Below, piece by piece: positions 40,062-44,832 of a stretch of DNA of 64,000 nucleotides. The translations under genes were made by a program, and so were the position numbers. The DNA comes from Oxalobacter sp. OttesenSCG-928-P03 (GTDB taxonomy: Bacteria > Pseudomonadota > Gammaproteobacteria > Burkholderiales > Burkholderiaceae_D). How positions within the stretch are numbered: position 1 is the stretch's first letter; every line of letters starts with the position of its first letter. The notes beneath the pieces are model-generated. The model saw only the letters and a program-made list of their open reading frames with translations. It had not been told where the DNA came from and did not search any database. The stretch lies in contig JAJDFZ010000003.1 of NCBI GenBank assembly GCA_030269625.1, forward strand, positions 1 to 64,000. Direction: 5' to 3'.

Positions 40062-41738
<1,677 letters not shown>

Positions 41739-41767: not shown

Positions 41768-42058
41768 TTATTTCTGAACGATGGCCATGATGTCGGACTC
41801 GTGCATCACGAGCAGTTCCTCGCCGTCAACCTTGACGGTCTGACCGGCATAGCGGCCAAAAAGAACATTGTCACCGACTTTGACATCCATCGGCAGAACC
41901 TTGCCTTCCGGGGTAATCTTGCCGTTGCCGACCGCCAGCACTTCACCCTGGTCCGGCTTTTCTGCGGCGGTTTCGGGAATCACGATGCCCGATGCGGTGG
42001 TTTTTTCCAAGTCCATGCGTTTGACAATGATGCGGTCATGTAAGGGACGAAGTTTCAT
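41768..42058 (-). CDS. groES: Co-chaperonin GroES (10 kDa)
   Basis: Heptameric lid of the GroEL chamber, 96 residues. The N-terminus [14 protein letters not shown], the mobile-loop region [12 protein letters not shown] and the [15 protein letters not shown] strand are typical. ATG 42058 is the family start with AGGAAT a short distance upstream; a longer in-frame reading runs into the control region. The operon has an untranslated leader of roughly 130-150 bases. Confidence 0.98.
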
Positions 42059-42184
42059 AACAATAATTCCTCTTAATACATTAATAATGGTTAACAAGTT
42101 CCAATGGCAGCGAATCATGGATGGTTGGGCTATCTTTTCAGCCCGGTGTTTCGTTGCGCTGTTATGCAAAGGCAGGAAGGATTA

Positions 42185-42211
42185 TTAGCACTCCCTGCCA
42201 TCGAGTGCTAA
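42185..42211 (-). promoter_or_regulatory. CIRCE element (HrcA operator) of groESL
   Basis: TTAGCACTC and GAGTGCTAA are exact inverted repeats separated by nine bases, identical to the CIRCE consensus. It lies immediately downstream of the -10 region of the groES promoter, where bound HrcA would block transcription in unstressed cells. Confidence 0.97.
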
Positions 42212-42240
42212 GTATATGGGCGGTTCTTCCGGATTTCAAG
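42211..42240 (-). promoter_or_regulatory. Overlapping sigma-32-like and sigma-70-like promoters of groESL
   Basis: Read on the minus strand, CTTGAAA (42240-42234) and CCCATATA (42220-42213) are spaced by 13 bases, an excellent sigma-32 pattern. The same bases also give TTGAAA and TATACT (42216-42211) spaced by 17, a good sigma-70 pattern. CIRCE starts at the last base. The rest of the gap up to 42394 holds no gene that I can see. Confidence 0.85.
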
Positions 42241-42393: not shown

Positions 42394-42663
42394 TTATCGC
42401 TTTTTGATATCCGCTATGGGTATGCGCATTTCGCACCCGGAGGGTTGAGCAGGATCAGCGCAGCCATTGCAGGCGGCGCAGCCCGCATTTGCCGATGTGG
42501 CGGTTGTTTTTGCCAGTTTTTCACCCGGCCGGCTCCAGCCCGTGATTTTAGCCAGTGGCATAAAGATACGGCAGGTCAATCTCCCGAAAAGGCGTGGTGC
42601 CATATGTCTGAAAACAATAAGGGCTGCAGCGGCCAGAATGAAAAAGACGATGGTTTCCTGCAT
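42394..42663 (-). CDS. Small FeoB-associated Cys-rich membrane protein
   Basis: An 89-residue protein. An N-terminal hydrophobic helix (about residues 4-20) is followed by a basic segment and then a cysteine cluster GCAACNGCADPAQPSGC (CxxCxxC plus one more). Such proteins accompany feoB in many bacteria and may handle iron or electrons for the transporter, but the role is not proven. The start ATG 42663 lies just 3' of the feoB stop, so the two are tightly linked. An in-frame longer version would overlap feoB and is less likely. Confidence 0.8.
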   Translation of the reverse strand: MQETIVFFILAAAALIVFRHMAPRLFGRLTCRIFMPLAKITGWSRPGEKLAKTTATSANAGCAACNGCADPAQPSGCEMRIPIADIKKR

Positions 42664-42665
42664 GG

Positions 42666-44570
42666 CTATCCTCCCGTCAAAAAGAGGCTGATGCGATAAG
42701 TGATAAACGATGCCGCATAAGCCAGCGCAAAAAGGTAGAGTGTCATGATGGCGGCATATTTCCACGAATTGGTTTCACGTTTTGTGACAATAATCATGGG
42801 AATGCATTGCGGGGCAAAAACATACCAGGCGAGGAGGGAAAGGGCGGTTGGCAGGCCCCAGCTTGCCGCAATGACAGCGGAAAGCGCTGTTGAGAGTTCA
42901 TCGCCCGTGGCTGAGAGCGCATAAACGGTTCCCAGTGCCGCAACGGATGCTTCGCGGGCAGCCATGCCGGGAATGAGTGCAATGGAGAGCTGCCAGTTAA
43001 AGCCGATGGGTTCAAACAGGTATTGCAGCAGGTGGCCGAGTTGTCCCGCAAGACTGTATCTGATAGCCGGTTCGGTGGCATTATCAGGCGCCCCGGGGAA
43101 GCTGGAAAGAAACCAGAGCAGGACCATCAGGGCGAGAATGATCGTACCGGCCCGCGTGAGGAATATTTTTGCCCGTTCCCACAGGCCAAGCAACAGGTTG
43201 CGAAGGTTGGGCCAATGATAGGCCGGCAATTCCATCATGAGGGGCTGATACTGGTTTTTTCCGACAAAGATTTTGATCAGCCAGGCAATAATCATGGCGG
43301 CAATGATGCCGCTCATGTACAGTCCAAACAGCACCAGGCCCTGCATATTGAACAGGCCGACCTTTGTATTGGGTATGAAAGCGCCAATGACAAGCAGATA
43401 GACAGGAAGTCTGGCCGAGCATGTCATGAGCGGAGCGATCATGATCGTGGCAAGGCGGTTACGCGGATCGTGAATAGTGCGTGTAGCCATGATGCCCGGA
43501 ATGGCGCAGGCAAAGCAGGAAAGCAGCGGGATAAAAGCCCGCCCCGAAAGGCCGACTGTGCGCATGATCCGGTCCAGCAGGAAAGCCGCTCTGGGAAGGT
43601 AGCCGGATTCTTCCAGAACCAGGATAAACAAAAAAAGGATCAGAATCTGCGGCAGAAACACTACCACGCTGCCGACACCGGCAAGAATGCCATCAATCAG
43701 GAGACTTTTGAGAATACCGTCTGACAGGAAACTGCCAAGAAAGTCTCCAATATGTTCTACTCCGCTTTCAATAAGTTCCATGGGGAACGCTGACCAACTG
43801 TAAACCGCCTGGAACATCCCGAAGAGGATCGCCGCCAAAACGAGATAACCGAGAACCGGGTGAAGCACGATCGAGTCAATACGGTTTCCCAGCGTATCGG
43901 TTGCCGGGGGGGTCTTGATGACGGTATTCAGGATGCGATTGATGGTTTCGCGGGCATGCTCTTTTGCGGGGGGATGCGGCACAGCAGGCGGTTGCCCGGA
44001 TAATGCTGCCGCTTGCTGTTCAATGCCGGCAATAAGCTCATGCATGCCTTCAGAGCGAATGGCCACGGTTTCAACGACAGGCATATTCAATTCGGCGGAC
44101 AGCTGTTTGGTATCAATGTCCAGGCCGCGTTTTCTCGCAATGTCCATCATGTTCAAAACGAGAATGGCCGGATAGCCCAGTTGCCTGACTTCGAGTACAA
44201 GCTGGAGGTTGCGCCGCAGATTGTTGGCGTCAGTTACCAGCACGACCATATCAATGGCGGCATCTTCCTTTCGGGTTCCCAGAAGCACTTCCCGGGTGAT
44301 GATTTCATCAGGCGACAGGGTGCTTAAGCTGTAGGTGCCGGGAAGATCAATGATTTTGCAGGGGATGTCCGTCGAGACCAGAAACCCTTCTTTCCGCTCA
44401 ACGGTGACGCCGGCGTAATTGGCAACTTTCTGGCTGGCTCCGGTCAGACGATTGAAAAGCGCAGACTTCCCGCTGTTGGGATTGCCTACCAGCGCGATAG
44501 ATATCATTCGCGGTTTATCAGTCCTGGAGGTGTCGCCGGATTCAGGTGCCTGGGGTATCCTGGGTGACAT
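42666..44570 (-). CDS. feoB: Ferrous iron transporter FeoB
   Basis: GTP-dependent Fe(II) transporter of 634 residues. The G domain has GNPNSGKS (about 29-36), the G3 DLPGTYSLS and an N-x-x-D guanine motif (LNMMD). The membrane part starts near residue 240 and includes two gate regions, among them FACAIPGIMATR. It is shorter than the about 770-residue enteric FeoB. The start is uncertain: ATG 44570 overlaps feoA by 29 bases, while ATG 44507 (MISIALVGN) gives a more typical N-terminus. Neither has a strong ribosome site. Confidence 0.96.
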   Translation of the reverse strand: MSPRIPQAPESGDTSRTDKPRMISIALVGNPNSGKSALFNRLTGASQKVANYAGVTVERKEGFLVSTDIPCKIIDLPGTYSLSTLSPDEIITREVLLGTRKEDAAIDMVVLVTDANNLRRNLQLVLEVRQLGYPAILVLNMMDIARKRGLDIDTKQLSAELNMPVVETVAIRSEGMHELIAGIEQQAAALSGQPPAVPHPPAKEHARETINRILNTVIKTPPATDTLGNRIDSIVLHPVLGYLVLAAILFGMFQAVYSWSAFPMELIESGVEHIGDFLGSFLSDGILKSLLIDGILAGVGSVVVFLPQILILFLFILVLEESGYLPRAAFLLDRIMRTVGLSGRAFIPLLSCFACAIPGIMATRTIHDPRNRLATIMIAPLMTCSARLPVYLLVIGAFIPNTKVGLFNMQGLVLFGLYMSGIIAAMIIAWLIKIFVGKNQYQPLMMELPAYHWPNLRNLLLGLWERAKIFLTRAGTIILALMVLLWFLSSFPGAPDNATEPAIRYSLAGQLGHLLQYLFEPIGFNWQLSIALIPGMAAREASVAALGTVYALSATGDELSTALSAVIAASWGLPTALSLLAWYVFAPQCIPMIIVTKRETNSWKYAAIMTLYLFALAYAASFITYRISLFLTGG

Positions 44571-44832
44571 AAATCATGGATGCCTCAAGGCGTCTCAAGG
44601 CAAATGTAGCGTTGCCGACACGTACAGCCATCGGGTCGCGTCCGGGAAAGGATTCGGCAACAATCGAAATTTTTTCTCCCTGAAAAAACCCCAGTTCCAT
44701 GAGGCGGGAACGGACAAATTCCGGTCGATTGGCGTCGGCGTCAGCCAATCCCATAATCGTGGCCGAGTCGCCTTTTCTCAGTTGGGCCAGATTACAGATT
44801 TTTTGCAGTTGGGCGTCAGGTTTAAGGGTCAT
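44542..44832 (-). CDS. feoA: Ferrous iron transport protein FeoA
   Basis: A 96-residue SH3-like protein that assists FeoB. The core SRLMELGFFQGEKISIVAESFPGRDPMAVRVGNATFALRR is recognised by RLMELGFFQGE and DPMAVRVG. It is first in the feoA-feoB-Cys-rich order, and its end overlaps the feoB start, suggesting translational coupling. A Fur-like box lies about 80 bases upstream, implying repression by the fur product in iron-replete cells. Confidence 0.94.
   Translation of the reverse strand: MTLKPDAQLQKICNLAQLRKGDSATIMGLADADANRPEFVRSRLMELGFFQGEKISIVAESFPGRDPMAVRVGNATFALRRLEASMIYVTQDTPGT

Follow-up and report, generated by a model that had tools for sequence, protein, structure and literature searches.

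In the groES-groEL control region of Oxalobacter sp. OttesenSCG-928-P03, possible sites for two sigma factors and one repressor are packed into 56 bases, and the question arises whether both promoter readings are meaningful and how the operator is combined with them. The region (positions 42185-42240, minus strand, CTTGAAATCCGGAAGAACCGCCCATATACTTAGCACTCGATGGCAGGGAGTGCTAA) is located upstream of groES-groEL in the window, i.e., the whole stretch of 64,000 nucleotides which was analysed. A first-pass annotation had proposed a sigma-32 promoter, a sigma-70 promoter formed by the same bases, and a perfect CIRCE beginning at the -10 element; all of these were found in place on the minus strand, and the sigma-32 elements proved to be conserved in most of the beta-proteobacterial groES loci compared. 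The features are as follows:

42240-42234, minus strand: CTTGAAA, shared -35 element (sigma-32; as TTGAAA for sigma-70), from the sequence, with CTTGAA exact in 77/84 beta-proteobacterial groES upstream regions
42239-42234, minus strand: TTGAAA, sigma-70 reading of the -35 element, from the sequence
42220-42213, minus strand: CCCATATA, sigma-32 type -10 element, from the sequence, with conserved C at -8/-7
42216-42211, minus strand: TATACT, sigma-70 type -10 hexamer, from the sequence and from conservation in 77/84 loci
42211-42185, minus strand: CIRCE, perfect 9-9-9 inverted repeat TTAGCACTC-N9-GAGTGCTAA, from the sequence
42059..42204, minus strand: predicted groESL leader of about 145 nt, weakly conserved within the genus
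42068..42073, minus strand: AGAGGA, ribosome-binding site 9 nt 5' of the groES ATG, from the sequence
41768..42058, minus strand: groES, 96 aa, up to 98% identical to groES of relatives
40062..41705, minus strand: groEL, 547 aa, up to 85% identical (532 aa aligned) to an Oxalobacteraceae GroEL

The spacer between CTTGAAA and CCCATATA has a length of 13 nt, that between TTGAAA and TATACT 17 nt. TATACT and the CIRCE overlap by one base, since 42211 is both the last T of the hexamer and the first T of the repeat. The CIRCE is situated 126 nt 5' of the groES ATG and, with the start position deduced from the -10 element, is predicted to extend from about -7 to +20 relative to the transcription start. 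A longer open reading frame beginning with TTG, which was contained in the ORF list, was set aside, and the ATG at 42058 was taken as the groES start. On the same strand as groESL and 5' of it (42394-44832), FeoA-/FeoB-like ferrous iron transport genes, named from reading their translations, and a small downstream ORF were noticed, with a weak terminator-like hairpin (42376-42361) between the feo-like genes and groESL.

The elements differ in how readily they could arise by chance. Dinucleotide shuffling gave an expectation of 0.02 CIRCE with up to three mismatches in the window; one perfect copy is present, and it is the sole CIRCE in the window and in the 1.68-Mb genome. CTTGAAA-N11-16-CCCNTNT was matched once in the window, compared to 0.10 expected matches. 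The sigma-70-like pair TTGAAA/TATACT scores 10/12, and 1.1 such matches are expected by chance in the region. Thus, the pair is weak when taken alone, and it would appear credible because of its conservation rather than its single score.

This conservation was evaluated with 84 distinct beta-proteobacterial groES upstream regions, which were aligned on CIRCE. CTTGAA was exact in 77 of them, and its distance to CIRCE, counted in the 80 loci with near-exact CTTGAA, was 29 nt in 51 and 28 nt in 19 cases. C was found at -8 in 72 and at -7 in 69 of the 84 loci. The positions -5 to -3, which are outside of CIRCE, were among the most conserved bases (T in 72, A in 78 and T in 74 of 84, respectively), and the last base of the TATNNT-like hexamer usually coincided with the T that opens CIRCE. 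In 77/84 loci, four or more positions of TATAAT were matched by a hexamer with a spacing of 16-18 nt. From the genus, the groES locus was obtained from 10 of 12 other genomes, with CTTGAAA, CCC(A/C)TATA(C/A) and CIRCE in the same register in all ten; in two fragmented genomes among the 12 the groES CIRCE was not found. The tight overlap and its assignment to groESL, which had likewise been proposed, are shared by these ten genomes of the genus and by most of the 84 loci. The footprint of promoter and CIRCE is kept among relatives while the groESL leader varies, and judging from these alignments the layout is an ordinary, conserved arrangement in the bacterial order of the host.

An alternative which deserves consideration, albeit an unlikely one, is a plain sigma-32 promoter followed by CIRCE, with only one sigma factor involved and TATACT as a by-product of an A+T-rich -10 element meeting the TT of CIRCE. 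The last T of the hexamer does come from CIRCE in most loci, and sigma-70-like pairs appear by chance in this region; however, the high conservation of the bases at -5 to -3 is then not accounted for by CIRCE, and the grpE promoters of relatives provide a second argument. These promoters possess a clear CTTGAAA-N13-CCCCA, and a TATAAT-like hexamer at 16-18 nt was present in 3/23 of them versus 77/84 groES loci. Since CIRCE supplies the last T, the test was repeated with the first three bases (TAT) only, which were found in 5/23 grpE and 68/79 groES loci (p = 1e-8, loci not phylogenetically independent). Because the loci are related, the p-values should not be taken strictly, although the difference between groES and grpE is large. 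Since most sigma-32 promoters of grpE are devoid of a TATAAT-like hexamer, this result supports a sigma-32/sigma-70 hybrid at groES and, with it, the claim that the same bases may be read by sigma-70. The canonical sigma-32 -10 element of the grpE promoters (CCCCAT) is located one base later than CCCAT at this groES, which makes the relative sigma-32 strength of the groESL promoter uncertain. In one member of the family (L166; G022:C34, about 365208) an extra CIRCE with two mismatches was observed just 5' of grpE.

A purely vegetative promoter with HrcA, as in Gram-positive bacteria, in which the CCC would be incidental, is very improbable. In many phyla, as is established, HrcA/CIRCE is the sole control of groESL, and TATACT with TTGAAA at 17 nt would suit such an arrangement, but the frequencies of CTTGAA (77/84) and of C at -8 and -7 (72 and 69 of 84), as well as the near universal occurrence of RpoH in relatives, are against it. 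It is highly unlikely that the CIRCE, a perfect inverted repeat near the message start, works not as an operator but as a leader hairpin which stabilises the RNA or senses temperature: the predicted start falls inside the left arm, so that part of the repeat would be missing from the transcript, and the leader shows no conservation. An RNA element in the groESL leader was also searched for and dropped, there being neither an Rfam match above the gathering score nor conservation.

Very probably, then, groES-groEL is controlled by sigma-32 and the housekeeping sigma factor on superimposed promoters, both of them repressed by HrcA at CIRCE; HrcA binding, sigma usage, start site and circuit in this organism are inferred from the elements described. 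RNA polymerase with sigma-32 would use CTTGAAA-N13-CCCATATA, and the superimposed TTGAAA-N17-TATACT would provide basal expression by the polymerase with the housekeeping sigma factor. At normal temperature, HrcA bound to CIRCE would cover about -7 to +20 and stop initiation by either holoenzyme. HrcA is kept active by GroE as co-factor, which is established for Bacillus subtilis and others (review PMC6032397). When GroEL is titrated by unfolded protein, HrcA activity would be lost, and strong sigma-32 transcription of groESL could follow.

Most relatives have two CIRCE sites, one at groES and the other directly 5' of rpoH. The latter was present in 12/12 other genomes of the genus, in which no CIRCE was found elsewhere than at groES and rpoH, and in the majority of the remaining family and order members examined; in the closest relative (G001) it is located at L185:17114-17140, and 30 further loci (L230-L259) are distributed across Burkholderiales. 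The bases 5' of CIRCE are not conserved at the rpoH loci, and no CTTGAAA was seen there. The three bases 3' of CIRCE are conserved: the TAA of the right arm together with NAT yields TAAAAT in 18/32 and TAATAT in 7/32 loci, and the final T is invariant (32/32). The left arm contains TTAGCA or TTGGCA, 18 nt before TAANAT; TTGG is commoner at rpoH (7/32) than at groES (4/84; p = 0.01). Because of this TTRGCA-N18-TAANAT, it appears that the rpoH CIRCE doubles as a vegetative-type promoter, in 12/12 genus genomes and in the majority of the Burkholderiales examined. The strict composite of this sequence with CIRCE was detected in 92/200 sampled genomes of the order, and rpoH was directly downstream, in the right orientation, at 30/30 composite loci examined; outside the order it was detected in 4/145 sampled Pseudomonadota genomes, three of the four at an rpoH-like gene. 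What was directly observed is the set of elements, the extent to which they are conserved, and their position next to groESL and rpoH.

This arrangement predicts that HrcA represses both rpoH and groESL in the relatives, as a feed-forward circuit. Heat or unfolded protein would free groESL and rpoH, and the sigma-32 made in consequence would switch on groESL and grpE/dnaK; with HrcA acting also on the rpoH promoter, its loss would both raise sigma-32 and open groESL (coherent feed-forward loop). Perhaps HrcA could even command the sigma-32 response of Burkholderiales at the transcriptional level, with an order-wide and so far undescribed wiring with rpoH and groESL; we put this forward tentatively, as possible but falling somewhat short of an even chance. 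CIRCE would be fused to a vegetative rpoH promoter, with the left arm as -35 element and the right arm giving three bases of the -10 element, while at groESL a sigma-32/sigma-70 hybrid promoter would be followed by CIRCE; HrcA would control sigma-32 and the foremost of its chaperone targets jointly, and GroEL would feed back on both. In E. coli, rpoH has an RNA thermometer, and gating of rpoH by HrcA, if true, would be the transcriptional counterpart. It would also explain how sigma-32 levels are set transcriptionally in beta-proteobacteria. No report of CIRCE at rpoH in beta-proteobacteria was found in the literature searched, which is not proof of novelty; the comparative paper by Permina and Gelfand (2003), going by its title, treats control by two systems in the same bacterial group.

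Related systems are known. The groESL operon of Caulobacter crescentus possesses one promoter which is thought to serve sigma-73 and sigma-32, plus CIRCE/HrcA (PMC8119881). It thus shares the two-sigma promoter and the repression of groESL with the present case, although C. crescentus is an alpha-proteobacterium with cell-cycle control through CIRCE and the present host a member of Burkholderiales. Since triple control of groESL has been described there, the architecture is already known and the groESL finding is modest; the comparative footprint provides a clear order-wide definition of the sigma-32/sigma-70/HrcA composite promoter. In Geobacter sulfurreducens, CIRCE occurs at groESL, hrcA-grpE-dnaKJ and rpoH (PMC545781), a reported precedent for CIRCE at both groESL and rpoH, as in the relatives; in the genus studied here CIRCE was found only at groES and rpoH. 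Bacillus subtilis has the same operator and repressor family, but no sigma-32 in its system.

The first-pass annotation had regarded absence of rpoH or hrcA from the genome as evidence against its reading. In this 62%-complete genome (G000) hrcA and grpE were indeed without a match, and for rpoH only sigma-70 family matches below the cut-off were obtained. However, HrcA was found in 39/40 genomes, among them all 12 other members of the genus, and 36/40 yielded a match to the RpoH family above the cut-off; rpoH was present in 12/12 other genus genomes, one copy being truncated at a contig end. In the closest relative, hrcA, nadK, grpE, dnaK, dnaJ and rpoH are located within about 13 kb, and the 20-kb block with hrcA-grpE-dnaK-dnaJ-rpoH had no orthologous match in the present genome, only short cross-matches, one of which falls at an rpoD-like gene on contig C41. 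Since this whole block is unmatched and the genome 62% complete, an assembly gap is likelier than gene loss; true loss of hrcA and rpoH is less likely, as grpE and the entire block are likewise without an orthologous match.

Autoregulation of HrcA and sigma-32 control of hrcA were considered and rejected: hrcA of the genus has no CIRCE and is thus probably not autoregulated, and no consistent sigma-32 match was found upstream, with one near match in G005 (L046). The hrcA gene of the closest relative (L185:4389-5438, minus strand) has neither CIRCE nor a sigma-32 site, and TTGAAT-N17-TACAAT is located just upstream, which suggests constitutive expression from this sequence without autoregulation.

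Among the sigma factor matches, several genomes of the genus shared one of 244 aa to the sigma-70 family which contains a single in-frame TGA (e.g., G000:C50:1669-2391 and G001:C1:1977711-1978430); at a guess FliA-like, it could be a sigma factor in decay or have been produced artificially by the read-through search. Judged by gene content, the host is very probably Oxalobacter or closely related to it: its best named GroEL relative belongs to Oxalobacteraceae, and oxalyl-CoA decarboxylase (TIGR03254) was matched in all 13 genomes of the genus, in 12 of them above the cut-off.
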